From Rhizomicrobium sp. (GTDB lineage Bacteria; Pseudomonadota; Alphaproteobacteria; Micropepsales; Micropepsaceae), in assembly GCA_037200985.1 (NCBI GenBank), contig JBBCGJ010000001.1:968756-1032755 (forward strand): a stretch of 64,000 nucleotides of DNA, read 5' to 3'. The translations under genes were made by a program, and so were the position numbers. Positions 804 through 18,651 of the stretch are shown piece by piece. Below the pieces are notes generated by a model, which did no database searches, was not told the DNA's origin, and saw only the letters and a list, made by a program, of their open reading frames with translations. Position 1 is the first letter of the stretch. Every line of letters begins with the position of its first letter.

Positions 804-829
804 CCTCTCCCGCGAGCGGGAGAGGTAAG

Positions 830-1468: not shown

Positions 1469-1495
1469 GGCGGGCGATTCCCCATCGCCTCAATC

Positions 1496-1595: not shown

Positions 1596-1611
1596 GTCGT
1601 GTCGTCACCTC

Positions 1612-2205: not shown

Positions 2206-2300
2206 ATGTGCTCCTGTTCAAGTAAAGGCCGTACCGGCAATAACCCCCGACCGCCAAATGTTCTTCTACGCCAAGTCGTTTCGTTGGCAAGAGCGAAGGC

Positions 2301-2804
2301 ATGCAAATGATATTGATAGCACTCGGCGCCAATCTTGAATCGCGCGTTGGCGTTCCGGCGCAAACATTGGACGCCGCGCTTACGGAGATTGAACGGCGCG
2401 GCGCGAAGGTCGTCGGCGTTTCGCCGTACTATGTCACGCCTGCCTGGCCCGACCCGTCCGATCCGCCTTTCGTCAATGCGATTGCGCGGGTTGCGACCGA
2501 GCGCACGCCACACGCGCTGATGGCAATCCTGCACGATACGGAAACGGCTTTCGGCCGAGTCCGTTCCGTCCGGAACGCGCCGCGCACGCTCGATCTCGAT
2601 CTCATCGACTATGACGGCCGCGTCGAGGCGGGCCCGCCCGTGCTGCCGCATCCGCGCATCGCCGAGCGCGCTTTCGTGCTCGTGCCGCTGGCCGATGTCG
2701 CGCCGGACTGGATTCATCCCGTCACGGGCAAGGGCGTGGCCGGGCTGATCGCCGCCCTGCCGCGCGACGTGCGCGATCTCGCGCGGCTTACTTCCCGAGC
2801 GTGA
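2301..2804 (+). CDS. folK: 2-amino-4-hydroxy-6-hydroxymethyldihydropteridine pyrophosphokinase
   Basis: FolK (167 aa) transfers pyrophosphate from ATP to the hydroxymethyl group of the pterin, the step before dihydropteroate synthase in folate synthesis. The N-terminal LIALGANL, the central DPPFVNA and RTLDLDLIDYDG at about 95-106 (Asp98 and Asp100 bind the two Mg ions) and HPRIAERAFVLVPL at 117-130 are all present. Length is normal. Two in-frame ATGs, at 2301 and 2307, could serve as start. The 3' end overlaps the convergent gene at 2788 by 17 bases. No folP or folB is nearby. Confidence 0.93.
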   Translation: MQMILIALGANLESRVGVPAQTLDAALTEIERRGAKVVGVSPYYVTPAWPDPSDPPFVNAIARVATERTPHALMAILHDTETAFGRVRSVRNAPRTLDLDLIDYDGRVEAGPPVLPHPRIAERAFVLVPLADVAPDWIHPVTGKGVAGLIAALPRDVRDLARLTSRA

Positions 2805-3351
2805 GCGTGGCGCGTATGCGGTCGAACGCCGCGGTCAGCGTCGCGCGATCGAACGGCTTGACCGTCCCCGGATCGAAATTCTCGATCGCCGAGTAGTGGA
2901 TGAAATACCGCACCGCGAGGCAGGGCGAAGTCCCCTCCAGCACGAAGACCGTCGTCTCATAGCGGTTGCCGGCGCCGGCATCCGCGCTGGTCGCGACGTC
3001 GTAGACGCGGCCGTCGGCATGCAGCGTGTGCACGTTCTCCGCCGGATCGACGAACTGCGCCGGCGCGCAGTCACGGCCCGGCAGGCTCTCGACCGAAAGC
3101 CTGGTGTCGCCGCCGAGATTGGTGCCCGCGGCCAGGCTCGCCGGGATCTGGAATGCGACGCCCTTGATGTCGCGTCCCGGACCGAGCGCGTCGAACACGT
3201 AATGCGTATCGATCGTCCAGTTCGCCGGATAGGCGATGGCGTAGCCGAGCGTCGGCTCGGTGAAATGCCGGGTGGGCGCCGCCGGCGCGGCCGCCGTTCC
3301 GGCCAGGAGGGCCGCGAGCGCAAGACAGGTCAGGACTCTGGCATCGGCCAT
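2788..3351 (-). CDS. Exported protein of unknown function
   Basis: The product (187 aa) begins with a clear Sec signal peptide (about residues 1-22, ending in TAAAPAAP). It continues with a mature part resembling small PsbP/DUF1795-like domains (FTEPTLGYAIAYPANWTIDT), but I do not assign it firmly. Two Cys (CAP and PCLAV) could form a disulfide in the periplasm. I chose the ATG at 3349-3351 because GGGAGA sits just upstream and the signal peptide starts there; the open frame extends further 5' but runs through the neighbouring intergenic terminator. It overlaps folK tail to tail. Confidence 0.7.
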   Translation of the reverse strand: MADARVLTCLALAALLAGTAAAPAAPTRHFTEPTLGYAIAYPANWTIDTHYVFDALGPGRDIKGVAFQIPASLAAGTNLGGDTRLSVESLPGRDCAPAQFVDPAENVHTLHADGRVYDVATSADAGAGNRYETTVFVLEGTSPCLAVRYFIHYSAIENFDPGTVKPFDRATLTAAFDRIRATLTLGK

Positions 3352-3410
3352 CGGCGCGTCTCCCGCATGCGACCGCGCCAGCCTATCGCCGCGCCGGGCG
3401 CAGTCCAATG

Positions 3411-3442
3411 AAAAACCCGGGCGGAGAGCCGCCCGGGTTTTC
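3411..3442 (-). terminator. Rho-independent terminator, possibly bidirectional
   Basis: An 11-bp GC-rich stem (AACCCGGGCGG with its reverse complement, loop AGAG) is flanked by an A-run on the left and a T-run on the right. Read on the minus strand it lies about 25 bases past the stop of the 3467-3841 gene and ends in a U-run. It should keep that transcript out of the next minus-strand gene. Confidence 0.8.
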
Positions 3443-3466
3443 CGGTATTCGAACGGACGCGCTCGG

Positions 3467-3841
3467 CTACTTCCAATGCGCCCAGGTCTTGCCGGTCTTG
3501 GAATTGTAGCTGATCGAAATCTCCGAGATCGTGCAGAGATTGAAATTCTCCCAATGCGCGTCGGTGTCGTCGTCATAGACGACCTTCAGATCCCAATTGC
3601 AGCCGCCCGCGTGATGCGGAAAACGGATCAGGACGGATTGGCCGTCGTCGAGCGTGTCCTGCCCGAGAACGTCTTCTTCCCAGTTGTTCGTGGAGACCGG
3701 CGACACGTAGACTTCCTTGATCGTGTAGCCGGTGTTGTTCACCAGGTTGAAGTTCTGCCGCCCCGCCGCGTCTGCGACCGTCGGAGCAAGCATCGCCAGG
3801 CCGGCCACCATGACGGCAGCCAACATCGTTCTAAAAAACAT
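3467..3841 (-). CDS. Small secreted protein with Cys pair, unknown function
   Basis: The 124-residue product has a Sec signal peptide (about residues 1-25, ending TVADAA) and a compact mature part of about 100 residues. That part starts with the pattern FNLVNNTGYTIKEVYVSP and contains two Cys (GGCNWDL and NLCTISEI) likely to form a disulfide. Similar small periplasmic proteins occur in proteobacteria and are sometimes mislabelled as enzymes; I assign no function. The ATG at 3839-3841 is chosen because AAGGGG precedes it at good spacing. A hairpin terminator follows the gene. Confidence 0.75.
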   Translation of the reverse strand: MFFRTMLAAVMVAGLAMLAPTVADAAGRQNFNLVNNTGYTIKEVYVSPVSTNNWEEDVLGQDTLDDGQSVLIRFPHHAGGCNWDLKVVYDDDTDAHWENFNLCTISEISISYNSKTGKTWAHWK

Positions 3842-4941: not shown

Positions 4942-5024
4942 TTCCGGGCGCGTCGAACGACTTGTTCACGTTTGTCGTCTAGGTCGTGCGGCGGGAGGGC
5001 GATGACCTAGCGTGCGGACCCGCC

Positions 5025-5585
5025 ATGCCCCATCTCCACGATGTCGAGACGCCGGACTTTTCGGTGACGGGGCAGGCGACCGTCGTGGAGATCGCGCCGC
5101 GGGACGTCGAATCCCAGGATATTCGCGACGTCCTCGCCGTCTGGAACGCGCGCCGCGGCGCGCACGCCATGCCGACGCGGGAGGACGTGCTGCCGCGCCC
5201 GCTCGGCCGGCTCTTGCGGAACGTCAGCCTCGTGAAGGTCATCGACGGCGGGGCGGACTACGAATTCCGCGTCGTCGGCGACGTCCATGTCCAGGCCTAT
5301 GGCGTCAATTCCCAGGGCACCCGGATCAGCGAACTGATTGCGTCGCCGACATGGTCGCAATTCGGCGATGTCTTGAAGCGGTCCTACGATCTGGTCCGCC
5401 TCCGGCGCGCGCCGGTGGGCTTTCGCGGTTCGATCCGGCGCGAGGTGGCGCAGGCCCGTTTCGACTGGGCCGAGACGCTTTATATGCCGCTGCGCAACGC
5501 CGCGGACGAGGTGGAATACATCCTGAACGCCAGCGTCTACCGCCCGCGCGACGGGATCTGGCCGGGCAAGTATGTGCTGGGCTGA
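5025..5585 (+). CDS. PAS domain protein (PAS_5-like)
   Basis: The product (186 aa from ATG 5025) matches the alphaproteobacterial pattern of stand-alone PAS_5-type proteins. A helix beginning SQDIRDVLAVWNARRG is followed by REDVLPRPLGRLLRNVSLVKVI, then YEFRVVGDVHVQAYGVNSQG and a long helix and strand. No kinase, GGDEF or HTH output domain is attached, so a sensory or partner-binding role is likely but unproven. The start is uncertain: GTG at 4986 would add 13 residues, and neither start has a good ribosome binding site. Confidence 0.7.
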   Translation: MPHLHDVETPDFSVTGQATVVEIAPRDVESQDIRDVLAVWNARRGAHAMPTREDVLPRPLGRLLRNVSLVKVIDGGADYEFRVVGDVHVQAYGVNSQGTRISELIASPTWSQFGDVLKRSYDLVRLRRAPVGFRGSIRREVAQARFDWAETLYMPLRNAADEVEYILNASVYRPRDGIWPGKYVLG

Positions 5586-5594
5586 CGGGTCGGC

Positions 5595-5622
5595 CTTGCT
5601 TCGCACCGCGACAGTCTATAGC
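5595..5622 (+). promoter_or_regulatory. Candidate promoter for rpoZ
   Basis: CTTGCT at 5595-5600 and CTATAG at 5616-5621 resemble the alphaproteobacterial housekeeping pattern (CTTGAC and CTATAT), but the spacer of 15 bases is short. A transcript from here would have an rpoZ leader of about 70 nt. Confidence 0.3.
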
Positions 5623-5700
5623 TTCCGCCGCCTTCTGCCCGGTCTTGTGCCGATTTGCGCCCCTCCGCGCGGCTAAGACCATAGAAAGACAAGGATTTCC

Positions 5701-6087
5701 ATGGCTCGCGTCACCGTTGAAGATTGCGTCGACAAGGTCCCGAACCGCTTCGACCTGGTTCTGATCTCGGCCTTCCGCGCCCGTCAGCTCTCCGGCGGCG
5801 CCGAGCCGCTGGTCGACCGCGACCGCGACAAGAACCCCGTCGTGGCGCTGCGCGAGATCGCCGCCAAAGAAGTGAAGCCCGACGAGACCAAGGAGGAGTA
5901 CATCAAGTCCCTCCAGAAGCATGCCGATGTCGACGAGCCGGAAGAGGCGCGTCCCGACACCGACGACCAGCGCGAGGACTCGACGTTCCGCGCCGTCACC
6001 GAGGAAGAGCTGCTGCGCGCCCTCACCTCCGAAGCCCAGCGCCGCGCCGAGCCCCAGCCGGAGCCGGAAGCGGACTACGAAGAGTAG
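5701..6087 (+). CDS. rpoZ: RNA polymerase omega subunit
   Basis: The 128-residue omega subunit aids assembly and stability of RNA polymerase by wrapping the C-terminal part of beta'. The conserved core is [20 protein letters not shown], then SAFRARQL, then [12 protein letters not shown] (residues 1-60). The tail is acidic and Pro-rich ([12 protein letters not shown]), longer than in E. coli (91 aa) but usual for alphaproteobacteria. In most relatives rsh follows directly; here a peptidase gene is inserted. A strong terminator follows. Confidence 0.95.
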
Positions 6088-6455: not shown

Positions 6456-8372
6456 ATGACGAACACGTCCGCGGGACGCACCGACCTCAGCCGCAGCACC
6501 CGCGCCGCGCCGCGCGACGCCTCGATCGTCGGTCCGACCCCGCCGCAGAAGGTCATCGCCGTCTCGGTGATCCTCCGCCGGAAGAATCCTCTCCCGCCGG
6601 ACGCGCTCGAGCGACGGATCCCGCGCGAGGAATATCTGAAAAATCATGCCGCCGACCCGGCCGATTTCGACCGGCTTCGTCTGTTCGCGCGCGCGCAAGG
6701 CCTCGCCGTCGACGAGCCGGCCTCCAGCCTGGCGCGCCGGACCGTCCTGCTGCGCGGGACGGTCGACGCCATGCAGCGCGCCTTCGGCGTCACGCTGCAG
6801 GACTACGCGAGCGCCTCCGGCAAGACGTTCCACGGCTTTGCCGGCACGGTTTCGGTGCCCACGGAGATCGCGCCCATCGTCCAGGCCGTCTTCGGCCTCG
6901 ACAACCGGCCGATCGCGAAGCCGGCCTTTCGTCGCGCGCGCGCCGAAACCGCGAGCGGCGGCTCCTTCTACCCCAATGAGATCGCGAGCATGTATGCTTT
7001 CCCGGCCGGCTGCGGACTGGGGCAAACGGTCGGCATCATCGAGCTGGGCGGGGGCTATTGGGATACGGACATCGCGACCTACTTCGCGGGCTTGAATCTC
7101 ACGCCGCCCAACGTCGTCGCCGTTTCGGTGGACGATGGCACGAACGCGCCCGGCGAGCCCGGAAGCATACCGCCGGACAGTCCCGACTATGAGGTGGCGC
7201 TCGACATCCAGGTGATCGGGGCCGCCGCGCCCGGCGTGAACATCGCGGTCTACTTCGCACCCAATAGCGATCAAGGCTTTCTCGACGCGCTCACCACCGC
7301 CGTCGCGGACGAAACGAACAAACCTTCGGTGATCTCGATCAGTTGGGGCGCCTCGGAGACGGCCTATTCGCAGGACTTTCTCGATGCGTTCGACGAAGCA
7401 TGCGAGTCGGCCGGCGCGATGGCCATCACGGTCACCGCCGCTTCTGGCGACGGCGGAGCGACCTATTATGGGACGGCGGACACCGTGCTGTTTCCCGCGT
7501 CGAGCCCCCATGTGCTGGCGTGCGGCGGTACCCGCATCGGCAATGGCTCTCCGGAAACGGTCTGGAACGACGCGCCCGACGATGGCGCGACCGGCGGCGG
7601 CGTGAGCACCCTCTTTCCCGTGCCGGTCTGGCAAACCGGGATTACCGCGACCCCGGCCGGCGGCTCCGCTGCCGCGCTCACCGGCCGTGGCGTGCCGGAC
7701 GTCTCCGGCCATGCCTCGCCGGTGGTGGGCTACAATATCCTGGTTGGCGGCAGCCCGTGCGTGGTGGGCGGCACCAGCGCCGTCGCCCCGCTCTGGGCGG
7801 GGCTGATCGCCATCTGCAACAGGCAGTTGGGCACCGCGCTCGGCTTCATGAACGGCAAGCTCTACAAAGCGCCTGCGCCGCCGCCCCAGTATTTCGGCGC
7901 GACCTTCAACGACATCACATCGGGCAACAACGTGTACGATGCGGAGGTGGGGTACGAGGCGACCCCGGGCTGGGACGCCTGCACGGGCCTCGGCTCGCCC
8001 GCCGGCGGTGCCATCGCCTGGACGTTTGGCGTTCCGACGGCACTCTTTCCGCGCGTCGGCGCTCTGGAGGTGAAGTGCGACGGACCTTTCGTGATCGATA
8101 TCCACGCGCTGTACAAAGGCCCGACCGACAAGAGCTATACGGACCAGGCGAACGACGACCATATCGCGGAGGGCAAAACCAAAACCCTCACGCTCAAGGA
8201 CAAATGCACCGATCCCGACATCGAGCCGGGCGATGTCGTCCAATGCATGGTATGGGTCGAATCGGGCGGCACGGCGACCTGCAACGATCTTTATGTCTAC
8301 GACCCGAATGGGCCGACGCGGAGTTTCAAGGCGACGGGCTCGATATCGAAAAGCAAGCTCGATCCGGACTGA
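6456..8372 (+). CDS. Kumamolisin-like serine-carboxyl peptidase (S53, sedolisin family)
   Basis: The protein (638 aa) is a sedolisin-type acid protease precursor. Residues to about 170 form the prodomain (KVIAVSVILRRK, then the Pro-kumamolisin fold up to AVFGLDNRPIAKP). The catalytic domain follows: Glu246 and Asp250 in YEVALDIQ, Asp332 of the oxyanion site in AASGDGGA, and Ser441 in GGTSAVAP. PGWDACTGLGSP near 510 is the calcium-site region. About 105 further residues after the catalytic domain contain four Cys and are not part of a minimal S53 enzyme. No Sec signal is visible, as in kumamolisin. AAGGTGA precedes ATG 6456. The upstream 150 bases are markedly AT-richer than the surroundings, suggesting later insertion between rpoZ and rsh. 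Confidence 0.9.
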   Translation: MTNTSAGRTDLSRSTRAAPRDASIVGPTPPQKVIAVSVILRRKNPLPPDALERRIPREEYLKNHAADPADFDRLRLFARAQGLAVDEPASSLARRTVLLRGTVDAMQRAFGVTLQDYASASGKTFHGFAGTVSVPTEIAPIVQAVFGLDNRPIAKPAFRRARAETASGGSFYPNEIASMYAFPAGCGLGQTVGIIELGGGYWDTDIATYFAGLNLTPPNVVAVSVDDGTNAPGEPGSIPPDSPDYEVALDIQVIGAAAPGVNIAVYFAPNSDQGFLDALTTAVADETNKPSVISISWGASETAYSQDFLDAFDEACESAGAMAITVTAASGDGGATYYGTADTVLFPASSPHVLACGGTRIGNGSPETVWNDAPDDGATGGGVSTLFPVPVWQTGITATPAGGSAAALTGRGVPDVSGHASPVVGYNILVGGSPCVVGGTSAVAPLWAGLIAICNRQLGTALGFMNGKLYKAPAPPPQYFGATFNDITSGNNVYDAEVGYEATPGWDACTGLGSPAGGAIAWTFGVPTALFPRVGALEVKCDGPFVIDIHALYKGPTDKSYTDQANDDHIAEGKTKTLTLKDKCTDPDIEPGDVVQCMVWVESGGTATCNDLYVYDPNGPTRSFKATGSISKSKLDPD

Positions 8373-8382
8373 CGGCGAAACC

Positions 8383-8450
8383 CCGCCAGGCCGCGCCGCG
8401 CGCGCATCGGGTTTCAGCGGGCGCGGCGTGGCGGTCGTCACGGTTTTTTG
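8383..8450 (+). terminator. Candidate terminator after the S53 peptidase
   Basis: A GC-rich 15-bp stem with one mismatch (8383-8397 with 8420-8434) is followed 9 bases later by TTTTTT at 8444-8449. The gap before the T-run makes it less than ideal. Confidence 0.45.
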
Positions 8451-8528
8451 CGCGGGGCAGGGTGCGGTCGCGAGCCGAGTTGCGGCCGGCGCTATCGCGG
8501 TGGCGGATTTCGCGCCTATATTACGTGC

Positions 8529-10772
8529 ATGAGCACACCGGCAGCGCCCGACACAAAGGCCGCGGAGCAGGTTTCGCCTGCGCCGGAGCCCGTCCGCGCG
8601 CCCGACGCCAAGCCCAAGGTCCGCCGCCGCCTGATGCGCCAGACCGAGCTCGTCGACCGCGTCAAGGCCTACGATCCCGACGCCGATGAGGGCCTGCTCA
8701 ACAAGGCCTATGTCTACGCCATGAAGGCGCATGGCAAGCAGTTCCGCGCCTCGGGCGACCCCTATTTCGCCCACCCGCTGGAAGTCGCCGCGATCCTGAC
8801 CGACCTCAAGCTCGACGTGGCGACCATCGTGACCGCGCTGCTGCACGACACGATCGAGGACACGCTCGCCACCTATGACGACATCAAGGCCAATTTCGGC
8901 GAGGAGATCGCCAATCTGGTCGACGGCGTCACCAAGCTCTCCCAGCTCGAACTCTTCAGCGAGCGCACCAAGCAGGCGGAGAATTTCCGCAAGCTGATGC
9001 TGGCCATCACGTCCGACATCCGCGTCCTTCTGGTCAAGCTCGCCGACCGGCTGCACAACATGCGCACGCTGGGCTTCATCCCCAAGCCGGAGAAGCGCCG
9101 CCGCATCGCGCAGGAGACGCAGGACATCTACGCCCCGCTCGCCGGCCGCATCGGCATGCAGAACATGCGCGAGGAGCTCGAAGACCTCGCCTTCGCCGAG
9201 CTCAATCCCGACGAGCGCAATTCCATCGTCACGCATCTGAAGCGCCTGGAAGGCGACAGCGGCGACCGCATCGGGCGCATCGCCGACCAGATCAAGCGCA
9301 AGCTCGCAGAGCACGGCATCGAGGCCTGGGTCTATGGCCGCGCCAAGCGGCCGTTCTCGATCTGGCGCAAGCTCCAGAGCAAGCAGCTCAATTTCGAGGC
9401 GCTGTCGGACATTTTCGGCTTCCGCGTCATCGTCCGGCACGAGGACGATTGCTACCGCGCGCTCGGCGTGCTGCACACGAGCTGGCAGATGGTGCCCGAC
9501 CGCTTCAAGGATTTCATCTCCACGCCCAAGACCAACGGCTACCGCTCGATCCACACCACCGTGATCGGCCCGGAGAAGCAGCGCGTCGAGGTCCAGATCC
9601 GCACCCAGGAGATGCACGACATCGCCGAGCGCGGCGTCGCCGCCCATTGGCGCTACCGCGAGCACGTCGCCTCGGAAGGCGACGACCGCGCCTATGGCTG
9701 GCTGCGCGACATGGTCGACCTCCTGGAGCGCGACAGCGCCGAGGACTTCCTGGAGAATTCGCGCCTCTCCATGTACCAGGACCAGGTCTTCTGCTTCACG
9801 CCGAAGGGCGATCTGATCTCGCTGCCGCGCGGCGCCACCCCGATCGATTTCGCCTATGCGCTGCACACCGACATCGGCAATTCGACGGTCGGCGCCAAGG
9901 TCAACGGCGTGCATGTGCCGCTGCACACGCCGCTGCGCAACGGCGACCAGGTCGAGATCATCCGCACCAAGGAGCAGACGCCGTCGCCGCTCTGGGAGCA
10001 GTTCGTCGTCACCGGCCGCGCCCGCGGCGAGATCCGCCGCTTCCTGCGTCACGCCCAGCGCGACGAGCACGTCAAGTTCGGGCGCAACATCCTCAAGAAG
10101 GTCTTCGCCGACGAGGGCGCCGAGCTGACCGAGAAGGCCATCGCCGACGTCGCCAAGAAGCTGCATGCGTCGAAGGCCGAGGACGTCTATGCCGAGGTCG
10201 GGCGCGGCGCGCTGCGCGGCCAGGAAGTGCTCGAAGCCGTCTTCCCCGAGCTCAAGAAGGACCCGGAGCGGCGCAAGCGCGCCGCCTTCGCCGAGCCCGC
10301 GGCCAAGCGCCCGGTCTCGATCCGCGGCATGACGGAAGGGATTTCCTACCGCCTCGGCCAGTGCTGCCATCCCCTGCCGGGCGACCGCATCGTCGGCCTG
10401 CCGACGCCGGGGGAGGGCGTGGTGATCCACACCATCGACTGCGCCGAGCTCGAAAAGGCGCAGGATTCGATCGAGGACTGGATCGACGTCTCCTGGGGCC
10501 GCCACGCCGCCGAGGGCGGTCCCTCCATCGCTCGCGTCGCGGTGCGGGTGAAGAACGCGCCGGGCTCGCTGGCGGCGGTGATGAGCGTGATCGCCCACAA
10601 TGGCGGCAATATCTTCAACATGAAGGTGACGAACCGCAATCCGCTGTTCTTCGAGTTCACCGTGGACATCGAGGTCCGCGACCTGCCGCACCTCCAGAAC
10701 ATCCTGGGCGCGCTGCGGGTGAACGCGGCGGTGGAGTCCGTGGATCGCGTGCGGGAGCAGGAGGCGGCTTAG
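8529..10772 (+). CDS. rsh: Bifunctional (p)ppGpp synthetase/hydrolase (RelA/SpoT homologue)
   Basis: This 747-residue enzyme makes and degrades the alarmone (p)ppGpp. The HD hydrolase domain has His82 and HDTIED at 106-111, so it should be active. The synthetase domain contains YGRAKRPFSIWRKL near 268 and TPKTNGYRSIHTTV near 335, also intact. A TGS domain (about 419-478), a Cys-containing linker (GQCCHPLPGDRIVG, about 610) and a C-terminal ACT domain (about 668-745) follow. It is the only RSH in the window, as expected for alphaproteobacteria. TATATT at 8517-8522 lies only 7 bases before the ATG, so a leaderless transcript is possible. pyrE follows after a family A repeat. Confidence 0.95.
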   Translation: MSTPAAPDTKAAEQVSPAPEPVRAPDAKPKVRRRLMRQTELVDRVKAYDPDADEGLLNKAYVYAMKAHGKQFRASGDPYFAHPLEVAAILTDLKLDVATIVTALLHDTIEDTLATYDDIKANFGEEIANLVDGVTKLSQLELFSERTKQAENFRKLMLAITSDIRVLLVKLADRLHNMRTLGFIPKPEKRRRIAQETQDIYAPLAGRIGMQNMREELEDLAFAELNPDERNSIVTHLKRLEGDSGDRIGRIADQIKRKLAEHGIEAWVYGRAKRPFSIWRKLQSKQLNFEALSDIFGFRVIVRHEDDCYRALGVLHTSWQMVPDRFKDFISTPKTNGYRSIHTTVIGPEKQRVEVQIRTQEMHDIAERGVAAHWRYREHVASEGDDRAYGWLRDMVDLLERDSAEDFLENSRLSMYQDQVFCFTPKGDLISLPRGATPIDFAYALHTDIGNSTVGAKVNGVHVPLHTPLRNGDQVEIIRTKEQTPSPLWEQFVVTGRARGEIRRFLRHAQRDEHVKFGRNILKKVFADEGAELTEKAIADVAKKLHASKAEDVYAEVGRGALRGQEVLEAVFPELKKDPERRKRAAFAEPAAKRPVSIRGMTEGISYRLGQCCHPLPGDRIVGLPTPGEGVVIHTIDCAELEKAQDSIEDWIDVSWGRHAAEGGPSIARVAVRVKNAPGSLAAVMSVIAHNGGNIFNMKVTNRNPLFFEFTVDIEVRDLPHLQNILGALRVNAAVESVDRVREQEAA

Positions 10773-10796
10773 ATCGGCGCTGCCCCGCCATAACGG

Positions 10797-10913
10797 TGTC
10801 ATCGCCCGCGAATGCGGGCGACCCTGGTGTCGCCGGAATCGGTTGCGGAGTTTTCCCCGATCCAAATGACGCAGCGACGTCAACTGGGTGGCCCGCATTC
10901 GCGGGCCATGACA
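10797..10913. repeat. Family A inverted-repeat element, copy 2
   Basis: The element starts TGTCATCGCCCGCGAATGCG and ends GCATTCGCGGGCCATGACA, so the outer arms of about 25 bases are near-perfect reverse complements. Between them lie about 65 unpaired bases. It sits between the rsh stop and pyrE and is clearly related to the copies at 1496, 17770, 22130 and 46252. Confidence 0.85.
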
Positions 10914-10941
10914 ATTTGAGTTTGTAAAAGCGAGTCGGACC

Positions 10942-11526
10942 ATGACCCCAGAACAAGTCCTCTCCGAATTCGAGAAGGCCGGCGCCCTGCTCAAGGGCCA
11001 TTTCATCCTGTCGTCCGGCCTGCACGCCGACACCTTCCTGCAGAAGGCGCTCGTCTTCCAGGACGCCAGGCGCACCGCCAAATTGTGCAAGGCGCTGGCT
11101 GCCAAGGTGCGCGAGGAGGTCAAGACGCCCTTCACCGCCATCGTCTCGCCGGCGGTGGGCGGCATCGTGCCGGGCTACGAGATGGGCCGCCAGCTCGGCG
11201 TGCCGGCGATGTATGTCGAGCGCGTCGAGGGCAAGTTCCAGCTCCGCCGCAACTTCCATCTCGAAAAGAACCAGCCGGTGCTGATGGTCGAGGACATCGT
11301 CTCGACCGGCGTGTCGTCGCGCGAATGCATCGAGGCGATCCGCGCCGCCGGCGGCAGGCCGGTCGCCGCCTGCTGCCTGATCGACCGCTCCGGCGGCAAG
11401 GCCAAGGTCGGGGTCAAGCTCGTGGCGCTGACCACGCTGAAGGTCCCGGCCTGGGAGGCCGACAAGCTGCCGCCGCATCTGCGCGACACCCCCGCCATCA
11501 AACCCGGCAGCCGCGGCCTGGCGTAG
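10942..11526 (+). CDS. pyrE: Orotate phosphoribosyltransferase
   Basis: PyrE (194 aa) joins orotate to PRPP to give OMP in de novo pyrimidine synthesis. The PRPP-binding motif [14 protein letters not shown] is at about 113-126. The N-terminal substrate loop ([12 protein letters not shown]) and the catalytic-loop region around [13 protein letters not shown] are present. Length is normal for the short bacterial form. The C-terminus [13 protein letters not shown] is repeated in degraded form about 1 kb downstream, which marks an insertion at this gene's 3' end. Confidence 0.95.
11498..11522 (+). repeat. Left direct repeat (att-like) inside pyrE
   Basis: The repeat contains a 19-base exact match to 12499-12517, then one mismatch, then five more matching bases. 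It encodes the residues KPGSRGL of PyrE and runs to within 4 bases of the stop codon. Confidence 0.7.
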
Positions 11527-11764
11527 TGGCAATATATTTGACCGACTCGGACAAGAATCGGAACTTGCGTCACGTCTTAGAACCTACAATATGACAACCC
11601 CGCGCCGATGGGCATATGTGTGTGTGTTCTCGGCAATTCCGCGTATTTTATTGGCTAATTTCCGCCAAAAAGCTCCTATTTTTGGGGCTCCTTATTGACG
11701 ATTTGGTCAGCGATATGCATCTAGTGTATGGCATTAACCCCCCGTCGGACTTGGCTGCTTGCGG

Positions 11765-11780
11765 CCCCCGGCGGGGTTTT
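11765..11780 (+). terminator. Candidate terminator upstream of the broken NYN gene
   Basis: A short CCCC/GGGG stem (loop GGC) is followed by TTTTG, placed 15-30 bases before the NYN start codon. It could end transcription from pyrE or belong to the element boundary. The stem is short. Confidence 0.35.
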
Positions 11781-11794
11781 GCTTTCTGCTGCTC

Positions 11795-12443
11795 ATGGTA
11801 GACGAGCCAGATCGCAAATTCGCAATGGCCTTTGTTGATGGACAGAATCTCTTTCAGCATGCAAAGGCCGCGTTTGGGCACTTCCATCCAAATTACGATT
11901 TGGTGAAATTGCACGCCGCTGTTTGCGCGGCGAATGGCTGGTCTCCCAATCTCATACGGTTTTACACGGGCGTTCCGAACGCAGCAGAAAGTCAAATGTG
12001 GGCCAGTTATTGGTCTAATCGGATTCTCGCAATGAAGCGTGCGGGGATAGTCACGACGACGCGTCCGCTTCGGTACCGGAAGGACATCGTAGAAATCGGA
12101 GGGGTACAGACCGTGCACACCACACCGCAAGAAAAGGGAATTGATGTTCGGCTAGCTTTGGATGTGGTTTCGTATGCCAGAAAAGGCAATTTCAACGTGG
12201 CTGTGATTTACAGTCAGGACCAAGATTTGTGCGAGGTGGTCGAATTTGTGCGAGGTGGTCGAAGAAGTCAGGCAAATCTCGATCGAAATGAAGCGATGGA
12301 TTAAAGTCGTCAGCGCGTTCCCACATGGTCCGAACGCAAGCTCGAAGCGTGGAATCGACAGGACGGACTGGGTGAAAATTGACGAAGCGATGTACAACTC
12401 ATGCATCGACCCCCGCGACTACCGACCAAAGCCCACCGCATGA
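11795..12443 (+). pseudogene. NYN domain gene disrupted by a 19-bp tandem duplication
   Basis: The first frame (ATG 11795) encodes MVDEPDRKFAMAFVDGQNLF, then GIDVRLALDVVSYAR and VIYSQDQDLCEVVE, the classic NYN acidic motifs. It then runs into an exact tandem repeat of 19 bases (12225-12243 and 12244-12262). This shifts the frame and gives a premature stop at 12304. Removing one repeat restores a single frame that continues EEVRQISIEMKRWIKVVSAF to CIDPRDYRPKPTA, ending at TGA 12441-12443. That gives about 209 residues, the full length of this family. The intact ancestor was probably an RNase-like NYN protein common on genomic islands. Codon use is AT-richer than in neighbouring genes. Confidence 0.85.
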
Positions 12444-12460
12444 ACCTCGAAGCCCGTTGA

Positions 12461-12527
12461 GATAAGTTGTTTTTCGCACTTGAAAGATGTTCTCGCCGTC
12501 AAACCCGGCAGCCGCGGTCTGGCCTGA
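12461..12527 (+). pseudogene. pyrE: Remnant of a pyrE 3' end
   Basis: With one extra base removed, this stretch encodes DKLFF then [16 protein letters not shown] and a TGA stop. It parallels the PyrE C-terminus [21 protein letters not shown]. The last 30 bases are almost unchanged, while the upstream part is T-rich and frameshifted. It marks the right edge of the insertion behind pyrE. Confidence 0.75.
12499..12523 (+). repeat. Right direct repeat (att-like)
   Basis: This is the second copy of the 25-base pyrE 3' repeat, 1001 bases downstream of the first. It lies 62 bases before the next intact gene. Confidence 0.7.
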
Positions 12528-12585
12528 CCCTTGTCACAAATCTGCCGGCTCGCCACCGCAGGATCGCCGTACCCTGGAGGTCTTC

Positions 12586-13026
12586 ATGTCCGCATTCGAT
12601 CCGACCGACGCCAAGGCCATCGAGAACCTGATCGCCGCCGAGGACGCCGCCTGGGGGCAGGGCGATGCCGCCGCCTTTTCGAAAGCCGTTCTCCCCGACT
12701 GCGTCTTCACCAACATCTTCGGCCAGGTCTTCGTCGGCCACGATCCGTTCGAGGACCAGCATGCGCGCATCTTCTCGACCATCTATCGCGGCACCACGCT
12801 GCGCCAGACCGTCACCCATCTGCGCTTCCTGCGGCCGGACGTGGCGACGGTGGACAGCCAGGCGGCGGTCTCGGGCATCGCGCATCTGCCGCCCGGCGTG
12901 ACCAGCCCGGACGGCGCGCTGCACACCAGGCTGCTCCAGGTCTTCGTCAAGGATCGCGGCGCCTGGGGCATCGCCTCCTTCCACAATGTCGACGTGAAGC
13001 CGCCGCCGGGTCCGCCACCGGCGTAA
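12586..13026 (+). CDS. SnoaL/DUF4440-like NTF2-fold protein
   Basis: The 146-residue protein has the alpha+beta cone pattern of the NTF2 superfamily. An N-terminal helix (AIENLIAAEDAAWGQGDAAAF) is followed by DCVFTNIFGQVFVGHDPFE and strands ending VKDRGAWGIASFHNVDV. Members of the SgcJ/EcaC group carry this arrangement, and many are small detoxification or binding proteins of unknown ligand. GGAGG sits 7 bases before ATG 12586. It is the first intact gene after the pyrE-end insertion. Confidence 0.8.
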   Translation: MSAFDPTDAKAIENLIAAEDAAWGQGDAAAFSKAVLPDCVFTNIFGQVFVGHDPFEDQHARIFSTIYRGTTLRQTVTHLRFLRPDVATVDSQAAVSGIAHLPPGVTSPDGALHTRLLQVFVKDRGAWGIASFHNVDVKPPPGPPPA

Positions 13027-13081
13027 GAGCCATGCGCGCGCGACTTATCCAACAGCGCCGAAACCGTCGTACAATCGCGTC

Positions 13082-13390
13082 ATGAGAACCGACCACGACT
13101 CCTTCGTCCTGCCGCCCGCGCTTGCCGCGGCCCGTCTGCGCATGCCGCGATACCGGCGCAAATCGCGCGATCTCGAAAACAATTATATTGCCGAAAATCC
13201 GGTAAACCACGGAAAGAAAAGGAAGAATCACGCCGGCGCGCGACCCGGCAACCGCAACGCCGTCACCCATGGCGCCTATACGGCGGAACAGAGGGCGTTC
13301 CGCGCCCATGTCCATCGTCTCATCCGCGACGCGCGCGAGACCCTGGCGCTGCGCAAGCTGGCGGTCGCACTGCGGGAGCGGGCGCCATGA
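13082..13390 (+). CDS. Small basic protein, unknown function
   Basis: The 102-residue product is strongly basic, with no membrane segment. Its middle contains [19 protein letters not shown], a Gly/Asn/Arg motif found in many short proteins of alphaproteobacteria and phages, some of them DNA-associated. A helical, Arg-rich tail follows ([19 protein letters not shown]). The last four bases overlap the pdxJ start (ATGA), so it is likely translated together with pdxJ. No function can be assigned. Confidence 0.55.
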
Positions 13391-14118
13391 CGAAGCTCCG
13401 TCTCGGCGTGAACATCGACCATGTCGCCACGGTGCGGCAGGCCCGCGGCAGCGCCTATCCCGATCCGGTGCGTGCCGCGCTCCTGGCGCAGGACGCCGGC
13501 GCCGACGGCATCACCGCGCATCTGCGCGAAGACCGCCGCCACATCTCCGACAGCGACATCGAGCGGCTCTCGCGCGAATTGAAAATCCCGCTTAACCTGG
13601 AAATGGCGGCGACCGACGAGATGCACGTCATCGCGCTGAACGCCAGGCCGCACGCCGCCTGCATCGTTCCGGAGAAGCGCGAGGAGATCACCACCGAGGG
13701 CGGCCTCGACGCGGCGCGCCAGCACAATCATCTGGCGCCCATCGTGCGCAGCCTCGGCGCCGCGGAAATCCGCGTCTCGCTCTTCATCGAGCCCGCGCGT
13801 GAGCAGCTCGATGCCGCCGCGTCGCTCGGCGCCCCCGTGGTCGAGCTTCACACCGGGGCCTATGCCAACGCGCAAGGCACGGAGCAGGACCGCATCCTCG
13901 AACGGCTGCACAAGGCCGCCGCCTACGGCGCCTCCATCGGTCTCGAAATTCATGCCGGACACGGCCTGACCTACGACAACGTGGGGCCCATCGCCGCCAT
14001 CCCCGAAATCCGCGAGCTCAACATCGGCCATTTCCTCATCGGCGAGGCGATCTTCGTCGGCCTTGACGCCGCCATCCGCCGCATGCGGGCGCTGATGGAC
14101 GAAGCGCGCGCGTGTTGA
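13387..14118 (+). CDS. pdxJ: Pyridoxine 5'-phosphate synthase
   Basis: PdxJ (243 aa) condenses 1-deoxy-D-xylulose 5-phosphate with 3-amino-2-oxopropyl phosphate to give pyridoxine 5'-phosphate. The TIM-barrel landmarks are [16 protein letters not shown] at the N-terminus, [16 protein letters not shown], the Glu in [16 protein letters not shown], and the C-terminal phosphate site [16 protein letters not shown]. Length is typical. It starts in an ATGA overlap with the small basic gene and its end overlaps the next membrane protein by 7 bases, so it is in an operon leading into acpS. Confidence 0.96.
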
Positions 14119-14879
14119 ATTTCTACATCCTCCTGCCGGTGCTCATCGCCGTCGCCGCGATCCTGCTCCTGTCGCGCCGTATCCCGCGCCGCGTGCTGAT
14201 GATCCTCGGCATCGCCTTCGCGCTTGCCGGCGCCGGCGCCTTCGCGGCGCTGGAGTGGTGGTACGCGCCGTCGCGCACCCAGGCCCTTGCTATGCGCCTG
14301 CCGCTCGCGGAGGCCGGCGCCACGATCGCGAGCCGCCCGTTCACGCTCCGCCTGAGCGGGCCTCACGATCTGCTGCTGCAGCTCGATCGCGGCGACGGCG
14401 TTCTTGCCTTCGGCTGCCTGACCGCCGAGCCCGGTTTCGAGGCGCTGTGCCTCGGCCGCGCGCCCGAGCTCGACGTGGCCTGGACCGTCGGCGAAGCCGG
14501 CACCCGCGTCGCGAGCGGCACGAGCGGCCTTGCCCGCTGGAAAGACGTTCAGGCCGCGACCGATCCCAAGGCGGCGGCCGCCAAGCTGGCGGCGTTCCGC
14601 GCCTATGCCGACCACGCGCAGGAACCGTCCGACCAGACGCCGCTCTATCACGCGCTCGGTACCTTCCGCGGCGAGGCCGGCCACACCTACGAGGTCCGGT
14701 TCCGCGTCGGCCGCGCCGCGCCCACCCTGGCCAGGCTCCACCCCCGCGTCATCGTCGGCCTCGGCGCCGCCGTGACCAGGTCCATCGGCCCCACTTTCCT
14801 CGGCCTCGCCCTGTTGTGCCTGGGCGGCGGAGCTTTCATGCTGCTCCTGTCCTTTTCGAGGCCCAAGACGGCGCCATGA
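14112..14879 (+). CDS. Membrane-anchored protein of unknown function
   Basis: The product (255 aa, GTG start) has two N-terminal transmembrane segments (about 4-21 and 28-46). A large extracytoplasmic domain of about 165 residues follows, then a C-terminal transmembrane segment (about 224-247). The soluble part ([22 protein letters not shown]) looks beta-rich. I do not recognise the family. It overlaps pdxJ by 7 bases and acpS by 4, so translational coupling is likely. Its position next to acpS and lepB hints at an envelope role, but that is inference from context only. Confidence 0.7.
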
Positions 14880-15277
14880 TCATCGGCCTGGGTTCCGACC
14901 TCATCGATATCCGCCGCGTCGACAAATCCATCGAGCGCTTCGGCGAGCGCTTCCTCGGCCGCATCTTCACGCCGCTCGAGCGCGAGAAGTCCGACCGGCG
15001 CGCCCAGCGCTCCGCCTCCTACGCCAAGCGCTTCGCCGCCAAGGAGGCCTGCTCCAAGGCGCTCGGCACGGGCCTGCGGCGCGGCGTCTTCTGGCGCGAC
15101 ATGGGCGTGGTGAACCTGCCGGGCGGCAAGCCCTCGATGAAGCTGACAGGCGGCGCGTTAAAACGCCTTCAGGAGATCACGCCCAAGGGCCACACCGCCC
15201 AGATCGACCTCACCATCACCGACGATTTTCCGCTCGCCCAGGCGGTCGTCATCATTTCGGCCGTCCCGAGCGCCTAA
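14876..15277 (+). CDS. acpS: Holo-[acyl-carrier-protein] synthase
   Basis: AcpS (133 aa) moves the 4'-phosphopantetheine arm from CoA onto apo-ACP. The Mg-binding Asp8 in [12 protein letters not shown] and Glu57 in [16 protein letters not shown] are in place. Length and start (ATG in an ATGA overlap with the membrane gene) are as expected. It is followed within 60 bases by lepB. Confidence 0.95.
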
Positions 15278-15334
15278 ACTAGTTTTCCGACGCCGCCTTG
15301 ACCTTCGCCGGTCGCCCCCGCAAAAGACCGCACC

Positions 15335-16186
15335 ATGTCCGACGAAGACCCCGAAAAGCTGATCGACGAGCTCATCGACGAGCCGAAACCCGTCGAGCCC
15401 GCGCCGCCGCCCGCGCCGGAACCGCCGCCGATCGAGCCGCCGCCGCCCGCCAAGCCGAGCGAATCCTGGGTCGAGACCGCCAAGACCATCGTCTACGCGC
15501 TTCTGATCGCGCTCGTGATCCGCACCTTCCTGTTCCAGCCCTTCAACATCCCGTCGGGCTCGATGGAAGCGACGCTCCTGATCGGCGACTATCTCTTCGT
15601 CGAGAAATTCTCCTACGGCTACAGCCGCAACTCCTTCCCTTTCAGCTTCCCGCCCTTCTCCGGCCGCGTCTTCGCGTCGCCGCCGACCCGCGGCGACGTC
15701 GTGGTGTTCAAGATGCCGAACGAGGCGTCCGACCACTACATGGAGGACTACATCAAGCGCGTGATCGGGATGCCCGGCGACAAGGTGCAGATGATCGACG
15801 GCGTGCTCTATCTCAACGACAAGGCGGTGCCCAAGGAGCGCGTCGCCGACTATGTCGAGCCCACGGCTTTCGGCAGCGTGGAGCGCATTCCGCAATTCAA
15901 GGAGACGCTGCCGAACGGCAAGTCCTATCTGGTGCTCGACCGCGAGACCACGGCGTTCGACAACACCCAGCCCTATATCGTGCCCAAGGGCGAATACTTC
16001 ATGATGGGCGACAACCGCGACAATTCCGACGACAGCCGCGGCGATGTGGGCTACGTTCCGGCCGAAAACCTTGTCGGGCGCGCGGAACTGCGCTTCTTCT
16101 CCATCGATGACACCGCCGTCTGGTACGAACCTTGGACATGGCCCGGAGCGATCCGCTTCAGCCGGATGTTCACCCTCATCGACTGA
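15335..16186 (+). CDS. lepB: Signal peptidase I
   Basis: LepB (283 aa) cleaves signal peptides of exported proteins at the periplasmic face. The N-terminal 45 residues are acidic and Pro-rich, and one transmembrane segment follows (about 49-68). The catalytic Ser76 is in PSGSMEATL, Lys141 in YIKRVIGMPGD, and the box MGDNRDNSDDSR is near the C-terminal end. One membrane span instead of E. coli's two is the alphaproteobacterial norm. The stop codon lies inside or just upstream of the rnc coding region. Confidence 0.95.
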   Translation: MSDEDPEKLIDELIDEPKPVEPAPPPAPEPPPIEPPPPAKPSESWVETAKTIVYALLIALVIRTFLFQPFNIPSGSMEATLLIGDYLFVEKFSYGYSRNSFPFSFPPFSGRVFASPPTRGDVVVFKMPNEASDHYMEDYIKRVIGMPGDKVQMIDGVLYLNDKAVPKERVADYVEPTAFGSVERIPQFKETLPNGKSYLVLDRETTAFDNTQPYIVPKGEYFMMGDNRDNSDDSRGDVGYVPAENLVGRAELRFFSIDDTAVWYEPWTWPGAIRFSRMFTLID

Positions 16187-16841
16187 TCTGGAAGACCGCC
16201 TCGGTCACCGCTTCGCCGACCCGGGCCTGCTCAGGCGCGCGCTGACCCATTCCAGCGCCAACGCGATCGTCTCCAATGAGCGCCTCGAATTCCTCGGCGA
16301 CCGCGTGCTCGGCCTCGTCATCGCGGAGGAGCTGCACAAGCGCTATCCGGGCGACGTCGAAGGCGCGCTCGCCCTGAAGCTCAACGCGCTCGTTCGGGAA
16401 GAGGCCTGCGCCCGCGCCGCCGAGGCGGCGGGCCTGGCCGACAGCCTCATCCTCGCCAAGTCGGAATCGCTCAGCGGCGGCCGGCGCAAGGGCGCGATCC
16501 TCGCCGGCGCCTGCGAGGCGGTGATCGCCGCGCTCTACCAGGACGGCGGCCTCGAAGCGGCGCGCCGCTTCATCGCATGCTATTGGGCCCCGATGATCGA
16601 GACGCTCAGCTCCGACATGCGCGATCCCAAGACCACGCTGCAGGAATGGGCGCAGGCGCGGCGCGGCAATTCCGCCGCGCCGGTCTATGCGCTGGTGAAG
16701 CGCGAAGGCCCCGACCACGCGCCGCATTTCGTCGTGGAGGTCCGCGTCGCCGGCCAAGACCCGCTCACCGGCGAAGGCCGCTCCAAGCGCGAAGCCGAAC
16801 AGGACGCGGCGAAGAAGATGCTGGAAAAGGTACGCGAATGA
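16107..16841 (+). CDS. rnc: Ribonuclease III (start uncertain)
   Basis: RNase III cuts double-stranded RNA, including the rRNA precursor. The signature NERLEFLGDRVL and the double-stranded-RNA-binding domain (TLQEWAQARR to KREAEQDAAKKML) are clear. The second acidic box reads AGACEAVIAALYQDGG, where most enzymes have ADxxEA, so the Mg-coordinating Asp is Gly here. The homology begins at LEDRLGHRF, right after the lepB stop. No ATG, GTG or TTG is in frame there, only CTG at 16188. The nearest in-frame ATG (16107) gives an 80-base overlap with lepB, so the true start is open. The end overlaps era by 4 bases. Confidence 0.88.
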   Translation: MTPPSGTNLGHGPERSASAGCSPSSTDLEDRLGHRFADPGLLRRALTHSSANAIVSNERLEFLGDRVLGLVIAEELHKRYPGDVEGALALKLNALVREEACARAAEAAGLADSLILAKSESLSGGRRKGAILAGACEAVIAALYQDGGLEAARRFIACYWAPMIETLSSDMRDPKTTLQEWAQARRGNSAAPVYALVKREGPDHAPHFVVEVRVAGQDPLTGEGRSKREAEQDAAKKMLEKVRE

Positions 16842-17752
16842 CCCATTGCGGCTTCTGCGCCATCATCGGCGCGCCCAATGCCGGCAAGTCGACGCTGGTC
16901 AACGCCCTGGTCGGCTCCAAGGTCGCCATCGTCAGCCCCAAGGTGCAGACCACCCGCATGATGGTGCGCGGCGTCGCGCTTCTGGACGACACCCAGATCG
17001 TGTTCGTCGACACGCCCGGCATCTTCAAACCGCGCCGCCGCCTCGACCGCGCCATGGTCGCCGCCGCCTGGACCGGGGCCGGGGACGCCGACGCCGTCGT
17101 CCTCCTGGTCGACGCCGCCGAGCTCACCGCCAACCCGAAGGGCCGCGCCGCCGACGACACCCACGCCATCGTCAAGGCCCTGAAGGAAGGCAACACGAAA
17201 GCCGCGCTCGCCCTCAACAAGATCGACGGCATGAAGCGCACCGACCTCTTGCCGATGGTGCAGGCCTTCAACGCCGAAGGCGCCTTCGAGGAAATCTTCC
17301 TGATCTCCGCGCTGAAGGGCGACGGCGTGACCGATCTGCTCGCCTGGGTGGCGAAGCGGATGCCGGAAGGGCCCTGGCTCTATCCCGCCGACCAGTCCGC
17401 CGACATCCCCTCGCGCCTGCTCGCCGCCGAGATCACGCGCGAGAAGATCTATCTGCGCCTGCACGACGAGCTGCCTTACGCCAGCGCGGTCGAGACCGAG
17501 AAATGGGAGGAGCGCAAGGACGGCTCGGCCCGCCTCGAGCAGACGATCTACGTCCAGCGCGAGGGCCAGAAGGCGATCGTGCTGGGCAAGGGCGGCGCCA
17601 CGATCAAGATCATCGGCGAATTGGCGCGCAAGGAGATGGAGGAGATTTTCGCCCGCCGCATCCATCTCTTCCTGTTCGTGAAGGTCCGCGAGGACTGGGC
17701 CGAGCAGCGCGCGCATTACAAGGAAATGGGTTTGGAGTTTCCGGAGGAATAG
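16838..17752 (+). CDS. era: GTPase Era, 30S assembly factor
   Basis: Era (304 aa) is a GTPase that binds 16S rRNA near its 3' end during 30S maturation. G1 GAPNAGKST, G3 DTPGI, G4 NKID and G5 SALKG are in order. The C-terminal KH domain carries GQKAIVLGKGGATIKIIGELA. Length is standard. The ATG overlaps the rnc stop (ATGA), the usual rnc-era coupling. A family A repeat separates it from recO. Confidence 0.96.
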   Translation: MTHCGFCAIIGAPNAGKSTLVNALVGSKVAIVSPKVQTTRMMVRGVALLDDTQIVFVDTPGIFKPRRRLDRAMVAAAWTGAGDADAVVLLVDAAELTANPKGRAADDTHAIVKALKEGNTKAALALNKIDGMKRTDLLPMVQAFNAEGAFEEIFLISALKGDGVTDLLAWVAKRMPEGPWLYPADQSADIPSRLLAAEITREKIYLRLHDELPYASAVETEKWEERKDGSARLEQTIYVQREGQKAIVLGKGGATIKIIGELARKEMEEIFARRIHLFLFVKVREDWAEQRAHYKEMGLEFPEE

Positions 17753-17769
17753 TCCTCTCAAACCCAAAT

Positions 17770-17903
17770 TGTCATGGCCCGCGACTGCGGGCCGCCCGGT
17801 TGGGTTCTGCATGCTGCTGCTCTGTTGAGGGCCATGTCTTGTCGGAAACGTCGTCGGCGTCTCTTGGGATCACCTGGGTGGCCCGCGGTCGCGGGCCATG
17901 ACA
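17770..17903. repeat. Family A inverted-repeat element, copy 3
   Basis: The outer arms TGTCATGGCCCGCGACTGCG and GCGGTCGCGGGCCATGACA are near-perfect reverse complements. The core shares ATCACCTGGGTGG-type sequence with the 10797 and 46252 copies. It begins 18 bases past the era stop and ends 11 bases before the recO start, so it forms nearly the whole recO leader. Confidence 0.85.
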
Positions 17904-17913
17904 CATTGGCACG

Positions 17914-18651
17914 ATGGAATGGACCGACGACGCCCTCGTGCTCAACGTCCGCCCCCATGGCGAAACGAGCGCGATCCTCGAAACGCTGACCCGCGATCAC
18001 GGCCGCCATCTCGGCCTCGTGCGCGGCGGCGCATCGCGCAAATCCAAATCCGTGCTCCAGCCGGGCAACGGCGTGCACCTGCACTGGCGCGCCCGTCTCA
18101 ACGAGCATCTGGGAAATTTCACCGTCGAGCCGGCGAAGGCCCGCTCCGGCGACATGATGGAAAGCCGCGAGGCGCTGGCCGGCCTCAACGCCTTCACCGC
18201 GGTCGCCTCCGCCGCGCTGCCCGAGCGCGAGGTCCATGCCCCGGTGTTCGAGGCCGGCACGCTCCTGCTCGACGCCATCCAGGCGAGCGATTTCGCCCAT
18301 TGGGGCGCGCTCTATGTCCGCTGGGAGGCGGGCCTCTTGGAGGAACTCGGCTTCGGCCTCGATCTGTCGCGCTGCGCCTCGACCGGCGTGTTGGAAAACC
18401 TGATCTACGTCTCGCCGCGCACCGGCCGCGCGGTATCGGGCGAAGCCGGCGCGCCCTACAAGGACCGGTTGCTCGCGCTGCCCGGCTTCCTGCTGGGCTC
18501 GCAGAACGCGACGCCCGACGCCGCCGACGTCGCGGCGGGCCTGAAACTCACAGGACATTTTCTTTTGGAGCGCGTGCTTCGCCCCCATAGCAAGGAAATC
18601 CCCGCCGCCCGCCTCCGCCTGGACGCGCTGGCCCTGGGCGAATCGAAGTAA
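17914..18651 (+). CDS. recO: DNA repair protein RecO
   Basis: RecO (245 aa) helps load RecA onto SSB-coated single-stranded DNA in the RecFOR pathway. The N-terminal OB fold (ALVLNVRPHGETSAILETLTRDHG) and the helical C-terminal part (LFEELGFGLDLSRCA-like segment at about 146-160, then FLLERVL) fit the family. Only one Cys is present, so the zinc-finger version found in some phyla is absent. The ATG lies 11 bases after the repeat element, with no strong ribosome binding site visible, so the repeat may affect its translation. Confidence 0.92.
   Translation: MEWTDDALVLNVRPHGETSAILETLTRDHGRHLGLVRGGASRKSKSVLQPGNGVHLHWRARLNEHLGNFTVEPAKARSGDMMESREALAGLNAFTAVASAALPEREVHAPVFEAGTLLLDAIQASDFAHWGALYVRWEAGLLEELGFGLDLSRCASTGVLENLIYVSPRTGRAVSGEAGAPYKDRLLALPGFLLGSQNATPDAADVAAGLKLTGHFLLERVLRPHSKEIPAARLRLDALALGESK

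Follow-up and report, generated by a model that had tools for sequence, protein, structure and literature searches.

How did about 1 kb of AT-richer DNA come to lie between an intact pyrE gene and a second copy of the end of that gene? The question is raised by a locus in a contig of Rhizomicrobium sp. (JBBCGJ010000001.1), of which a stretch of 64,000 nucleotides was analysed and is referred to here as the window. Downstream of pyrE come ~930 bp of AT-richer DNA and the second pyrE 3′ end; a gap of 58 bp separates the latter from a SnoaL-like gene, which is followed by a small ORF and then by pdxJ. The pyrE gene (10942–11526, plus strand) is intact, encodes 194 amino acids and matches PF00156 at 47.1 bits. 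The SnoaL-like gene (12586–13026, plus strand; PF13474, 23.2 bits against a cut-off of 22) and a gene at 13387–14118 (plus strand), which we take from its sequence to be pdxJ, are native neighbours. The reading favoured below, with a probability of about 0.45, is that a decaying mobile cassette was joined to the 3′ end of pyrE via a donor that carried a pyrE end of its own.

The ~1-kb segment is a foreign insertion at the end of pyrE, a conclusion supported by base composition and by comparison with relatives. A preliminary description of this DNA had called the spacer AT-richer than its surroundings, and the measurements agree. The insert (11527–12460) has a GC content of ~0.52: windows of 500 bases within it lie at 0.516–0.522, those straddling its borders at 0.59–0.60, and those in the rest of 8000–18000 at 0.62–0.74. 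Codon usage, proposed in the same description as a check alongside G+C content, also marks the segment as foreign, with a GC3 of 0.56 in its NYN-domain gene versus 0.93 in pyrE. This gene (PF01936, 31.1 bits) is the foreign coding sequence that the description had placed in the spacer. It was found in 1 of 69 genus genomes; homologues at E 1e-20 are found in 53 of the 69 for pyrE and in 67 for pdxJ. The related genome G084 lacks the insert and represents the empty site, the TGA of its pyrE overlapping the ATG of its SnoaL gene. The possibility that all close relatives might share the same spacer, with no empty allele among them, did not hold. Close SnoaL homologues stand beside pdxJ only in the window genome, in G084 and in the sister genome G028. 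In G084, ~1 kb lies between the SnoaL gene and the small ORF before pdxJ (L034, ~4945–5980), where the window has 55 bp. Phage and plasmid collections searched by DNA contained no copy of the insert. Six ORFs of the insert were scanned, and the NYN domain alone was recognised; the earlier statement that no integrase is left is borne out for these six. One minus-strand ORF gave a sub-threshold match to a plant domain.

The second pyrE 3′ end begins as a simple repeat. Positions 11498–11522 recur at 12499–12523 with an offset of 1001 and 24 of 25 bases identical, exactly as first described. The likeness extends to 11493–11522 (copy 1, the last pyrE codons, plus strand) and 12494–12523, with 28 of 30 bases identical, and its local-alignment score of 24 exceeds the best of 100 shuffles (13). 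The longer degraded tail suggested around copy 2 (12461–12527, plus strand) is indeed present, but it cannot be read without a shift of frame. It consists of DKLFF (12461–12475), a one-base shift and 19 residues; DKLFF is thus one base out of frame with the rest, and a 16-residue stretch of the PyrE end is readable in frame at 12477–12527. Ahead of the shared core, 45 nt align with pyrE tails above all 2000 shuffles (p 0.0005), and with the window's own pyrE tail alone at p 0.0015. The tails compared number 46, namely 43 from the genus (the window's included) and three from outside it, three duplicate genomes having been dropped; the set of 49 that retains these duplicates was used for the p values and for the count of V given below. 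Chance was considered as the origin of the repeat and is ruled out by the shuffles and by the alignment of the copy 2 tail, so the likeness is not a coincidence limited to the 25 bases.

Both repeats switch composition at the shared core. To its left, the GC content is 75% in copy 1 and 35% in copy 2, the latter below the lowest of the 46 pyrE tails (47%). Identity between the copies is 17/36 in the left part, with one base skipped, and 27/30 in the right part, with a sharp GC change between the two. The last 30 nt of copy 2, on the other hand, match such tails. Copy 1 has I and TAG, copy 2 V and TGA. The commoner states are those of copy 2 (V in 40 of the 49 tails, TGA in 22 of 26 other loci of the genus), as expected if its right end is the native one. 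When tails from different genomes, close relatives among them, are compared in pairs, 30 of 1035 comparisons equal or beat the 27/30 match of the copies over the last 30 coding bases, so that their identity is partly explained by conserved codons and high GC. The tail of G068 matches the two copies at 30/33 and 31/33, and the copies match each other at 28/33.

A change of composition at the core of both repeats is what attL and attR would show, and it argues for integration at the pyrE end. The proposed course of events is as follows. (i) An AT-richer source would have supplied the insert, consisting of the cassette (a promoter, a gene of the ribonuclease-like NYN type and, between them, a leader RNA of 37 nt with a bulged, terminator-like form) and ~165 bp of extra AT-rich DNA ahead of it. 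(ii) The donor sequence would itself have carried a pyrE 3′ end. (iii) Crossover probably fell within the codons for KPGSRGLA at the 3′ end of pyrE. (iv) It would have been made by a recombinase from elsewhere. (v) The outcome would be an intact pyrE on one side of the insert and a mosaic second tail of the gene on the other.

As in site-specific elements generally, a direct repeat of a gene end stands at both borders with pyrE left intact, and a relative has the empty allele. Elements that integrate into a protein-coding gene at its 3′ end include e14 and phage 21, both located in icd. The locus resembles these in the duplicated end of the host gene, the intact gene, the foreign DNA between and the empty allele in a relative. 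It differs in holding 1 kb only, with no integrase recognised, in its mosaic, AT-rich second tail, and in that no other cargo allele was found. Site-specific integration, already proposed in the preliminary description, is the leading mechanism and likely but unproved. The foreign insert, the empty allele and the second tail all stand; the mechanism itself is left short of proof because other pairs of pyrE tails match as well as the two copies, and because a reading built on a pyrE remnant is a close rival. Further observations run against integration. The arm of a strict attP is free to differ from pyrE upstream of the crossover, yet copy 2 resembles it there; copy 2 can also be aligned with what is left of pyrE in the sister genome G028, as the remnant reading predicts. 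A counterpart bearing an integrase at the pyrE site was sought in relatives, and none was found. Direct repeats flanking other NYN loci did not rise above shuffles in 16 of the 17 testable loci; L053 alone stood out, and L055 is too short downstream for this test.

Copy 2 may instead be the remnant of another or older native pyrE, the NYN-bearing DNA having entered with allele exchange or loss and with no attachment site involved. We regard this as a serious possibility, if a less probable one. In G028, which is close to the window genome (spoT 97%, pdxJ 94%), tblastn finds no pyrE at the locus. Before its SnoaL gene lie a decayed pyrE start (21/23 nt), which scores 19 where 300 shuffles reach at most 15, and a decayed pyrE tail, which scores 25 where 100 shuffles reach at most 21. 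These decayed parts sit behind 1.3 kb of unrelated ORFs, in which no Pfam match above cut-off was found. Copy 2 aligns with the G028 remnant at a score of 24 (maximum of 300 shuffles 12) and copy 1 at 21 (maximum of 300 shuffles 17). This likeness is not proof of shared descent, however, since in the left part it ranks 2/47 from the side of copy 2 and 22/47 from the side of the remnant. Survival of an old native end would also suit the degree of identity between the copies, which approaches that seen between two tails of the genus, but the decay of copy 2 is uneven, with little identity on the left and much on the right of a sharp GC change. Moreover, the intact pyrE of the window is sister to that of G084 with a support of only 0.64.

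The remnant account is further favoured by signs of pyrE turnover in the genus. G028 carries a pyrE of another type elsewhere, at 125 bits to TIGR00336. In the pyrE tree, G022 and G068 lie far from the window, although they are near by spoT (a tree of 20 genomes), and the clade of 17 to which the window belongs (support 0.92) includes genomes that are far by spoT. The disagreement of the two trees indicates that pyrE has moved within the genus, so that the descent of the window's own gene is not certainly vertical. It stands beside the gene of G084, inside a clade that the spoT tree does not show, and has possibly moved too. Its identity of 71–73% to the genes of G068 and G022 had led to the suspicion that it might be foreign; the tree makes G068 and G022 the odd ones, although, given the support of only 0.64 and a clade not seen with spoT, a foreign origin may still apply. 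The spoT-linked pyrE of G028 has been lost (L033, 13560–15010, G028:C1), the TIGR00336-type gene lying at G028:C1:2031112-2031597. Among ten chosen genomes, six that score above the TIGR00336 cut-off and G013, just below it, are all without a spoT-linked pyrE; the three that have one (G000, G084 and G022) give no strong TIGR00336 match. The pattern is one of non-orthologous replacement of a housekeeping gene. The pyrE gene of this genus is unusually fluid, with an insert behind it here and decay in a sister genome that has another type.

The suggestion that pyrE is an insertion hotspot, with larger cargo in other strains, is not supported. Counting the window genome, 51 of the 53 genomes with this pyrE have pdxJ on the same contig within 1.9 kb. 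The exceptions are G008, whose contig ends 96 nt past pyrE, and G064, in which pyrE is followed not by pdxJ but by 17.9 kb of other genes. No second tail above shuffles was found in that 17.9-kb stretch. The locus of G064 is rearranged (L116, G064:C22:3000-21600), and the first ORF downstream of its pyrE is presumably ABC-transporter ATPase-like, as judged by eye. A second pyrE tail beyond 60 shuffles was found in 0 of 26 other genomes with a pyrE–pdxJ interval or available stretch of more than 80 nt, three of these genomes being from outside the genus. A degenerate pattern of the pyrE end is found in 31 of 385 class genomes and occurs twice only in the window genome. Comparison of the pyrE–pdxJ interval across relatives, which the preliminary description had proposed, yielded one empty allele (G084) and no cargo-bearing alleles. 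In Synechococcus RS9917, tRNA-Met/pyrE is reported to be an island and IS hot-spot (PMC2784084); PMC5537653 and PMC2647930 coincide with the subject in wording only. Among the papers listed by literature searches, none describes a pyrE-end element of the present kind, as judged by titles and the beginnings of abstracts.

The cassette carried by the insert comprises the NYN gene and its leader. The 5′ part of the gene (11795–12304, plus strand) includes the PF01936 match, which is above the gathering cut-off of 24.2 and is the sole Pfam match of the protein. The motifs FxDGQNL, EKGxDxR..LD and DQDLxE are present, all before a 19-bp tandem duplication (12225–12262, plus strand); FxDGQNL, EKGxDxR and DQDL presumably form the active site. 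Past the duplication this frame is lost, and the 3′ part is read in another one (12246–12443, plus strand; ..RGIDRTDW..CIDPRDYRP), as judged from the reading frames and from relatives. The window's copy of the cassette is thus broken by the duplication. Comparison of 141 codons between the window and L053 places 90 of 142 base differences at third positions, which indicates that the NYN family has been kept as a protein. A protein search gave 20 NYN loci, 17 of which are good relatives (50–72% identity). L070, L071 and L072, which are short matches of at most 42 residues without the hairpin, are outside the 17; L059 and L069 are among them, and towards the end their NYN frames look interrupted. 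The 17 come mostly from alphaproteobacteria, with two gammaproteobacterial MAGs (we take Arenicellales to belong to the gammaproteobacteria). The NYN protein found no match in phages, nor relatives in viral contigs when used as a protein query; among plasmids it matched four records at 24–49% identity. A search of solved structures with the L053 protein gave none at E 0.1. In the Acidovorax plasmid pACP3.1 (L109), a distant NYN gene has a tyrosine recombinase on one side and an IS481 transposase on the other, and no hairpin was found with it at default filters.

Upstream of the window's NYN gene are a promoter-like TTGACG N17 CATCTA with a weak −10 (11695–11723, plus strand) and a bulged hairpin followed by TTTT (11740–11776, plus strand). 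The hairpin has a 9-bp stem, a 5′ bulge ACUU and a 5-bp inner stem; its fold is at −24.9 kcal/mol (z −2.8), and it scores 68.5 bits with model R1, being in the training set of that model. In the 330 nt upstream of the genes of the window and the 17 relatives, the shared elements are the TTGAC box (17 of 18 aligned sequences, L064 having TTGAT), a −10-like box and the hairpin; nothing else was seen. The shared hairpin, ATTAGCyCCCCGYCGGACTTGG...CCCCGRCGGGGTTTT, stands directly before the start codon and occurs upstream of all 17 good relatives, which were found by protein sequence alone. The 17 and the window match R1 at 56.6–75.4 bits; R1 was built from 28 sequences, and L064 alone of these loci is outside its training set. 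Other matches from outside the training set are L085, L086, variant units of L079–L081, an edge unit of L080, and L108.

Members of the family have a 9-bp stem, a 5′ bulge ACUY, at most 5 bp of inner stem, a single 3′ C and a T-run. Across the 28 sequences 95.9% of cells pair, compared with 35–56% in slid versions. Eight of the 14 pairs change on both sides, as many as in 0 of 500 shuffles, and all five sequences folded take the bulged form. A more distant relative in a Methylobacterium record (L108) keeps this plan in a diverged hairpin, which scores 14.9 bits (E 0.0004 in 401 bases) with filters off and is missed by default filters. The covariance models of Rfam 15 gave no match up to E 1 in 10750–13450.

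Five of the 385 class genomes, among them that of the window, contain a strict hairpin pattern, and 0 do so in the reversed control; the figure is a lower bound, as the pattern detects only 10 of the 17 NYN loci. In the other four genomes it marks an unbroken NYN gene (L077), a broken NYN start (L074) and arrays in G242 and G337. The arrays have TATAAT-type promoters and lie ahead of a methylase-like gene (PF07669 below cut-off; PADLOC MTase_II, E 1.1e-6). In L075 and L076 the ORF after this gene is, by eye, presumably hisB-like. The arrays of L079, L080 and L081 (G337, G242), likewise upstream of the methylase-like gene, include units of variant sequence, which score 21–41 bits with R1, so that there is no clean score gap. 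Three IMG/VR contigs match the hairpin, one with a broken NYN-like start and two in other settings; in one of these two the hairpin is ahead of an ORF that we take by eye to be tyrosine-recombinase-like. Scans with R1, whose filters lose weak matches, gave 11 other matches at E 1e-4 in 398 phylum genomes (at most 35.7 bits) and 18 others in the genus genomes (at most 30.4 bits). Of these 29, the 13 that were read look like plain terminators without the bulge.

The cassette also resides in elements that resemble IS1-family transposons with passengers. L055 is a contig of 3627 bp with the terminal inverted repeat (TIR) GGTAGTGTCTCAG at both ends and an IS1-like transposase, the hairpin and NYN inside; in L054 this arrangement recurs as part of a longer contig (5289–8690). 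The transposase calls are weak, with Pfam matches below cut-off and, for L054, 66.9 bits to NF033558 against a cut-off of 100. Both transposons (in L055, positions 1–3627) also carry further ORFs. In L053, NYN is flanked on both sides by a copy of the right end of the IS1-like transposon, the two copies being in direct orientation. Exact TIR cores are present in L053, L054 and L055 and absent from the 64-kb window, which indicates that the cassette is not tied to one kind of element. Residence in such transposons, and the bracketing in L053, would suit a third account of the insert, in which transposition or illegitimate joining unrelated to pyrE brought it in and a repair event duplicated the pyrE tail. 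This account is improbable for the window, which is without that terminal repeat; local duplication of the tail would, besides, yield a GC-rich copy and not one of 35% GC.

From its position, the hairpin is read as the leader of the NYN message. It would most likely end or meter transcription before NYN, by attenuation or as a form of nuclease self-control. A bolder and rather doubtful proposal is that hairpin and NYN form an undescribed mobile two-part system. A ~45-nt RNA with the ACUY bulge would hold the nuclease, as a bound partner or as a cut site, in an RNA-controlled defence or addiction module found on transposons and other elements, and the same kind of RNA would govern the methylase-like gene elsewhere. 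If true, this would be a small RNA family, carried among proteobacteria by transposons and other DNA, that regularly accompanies one protein and, for the stretch tested, has no counterpart in Rfam 15. It would also allow a direct test of RNA control over nuclease expression in a setting other than the known type III toxin-antitoxin families. No hairpin–NYN unit is described in the papers listed by literature searches, as judged by titles and abstract beginnings.

However the insert arrived, the hairpin might be an ordinary intrinsic terminator, without a separate role, that travels with NYN. Its G+C-rich stem and the T-run after it have this form, plain GC-rich terminators in other genomes reach 35.7 bits with R1, and two of the three IMG/VR matches are not before NYN. 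The NYN-linked hairpins nevertheless score far higher, from 56.6 bits upwards, and they keep GGA and the ACUY bulge where the stems change with compensation. The hairpin also sits between promoter box and start codon, its plan is kept in the diverged L108, and similar units stand in arrays before the methylase-like gene. A plain terminator is an unlikely explanation.

The leader arrangement invites comparison with type III toxin-antitoxin systems, to which ToxIN belongs (PMC5772629). The likeness, by sequence only, lies in a structured RNA with a terminator-like hairpin between the promoter and an RNase-type gene. In contrast to ToxIN, there is one hairpin, the ~45 nt from the TTGAC box to the hairpin hold no tandem RNA repeats, and the protein matches NYN in Pfam and nothing else. 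A type III-like RNA–nuclease pair is possible, with the odds well against it. PMC11346440 describes a CRISPR-associated NYN protein as a Mn-dependent RNase; the window shares the NYN domain and has a leader hairpin ahead of its gene where that protein has a CRISPR setting. HEC-09, a PADLOC candidate defence family, is a distant match (E 1.3e-8 for the window, 2.1e-9 for L053) at only 31–35 bits (window 32.8), with a model that gives no cut-off.

The window also contains four palindromic repeat pairs like GGCCCGCGAATGCGGGCC (at most 2 mismatches), at 1502–1589, 10803–10907, 17776–17897 and 22136–22251. We take them to be REP/BIME-like. The starts within a pair are 70–104 bp apart, and one pair lies directly before pyrE, where G084 has one as well.
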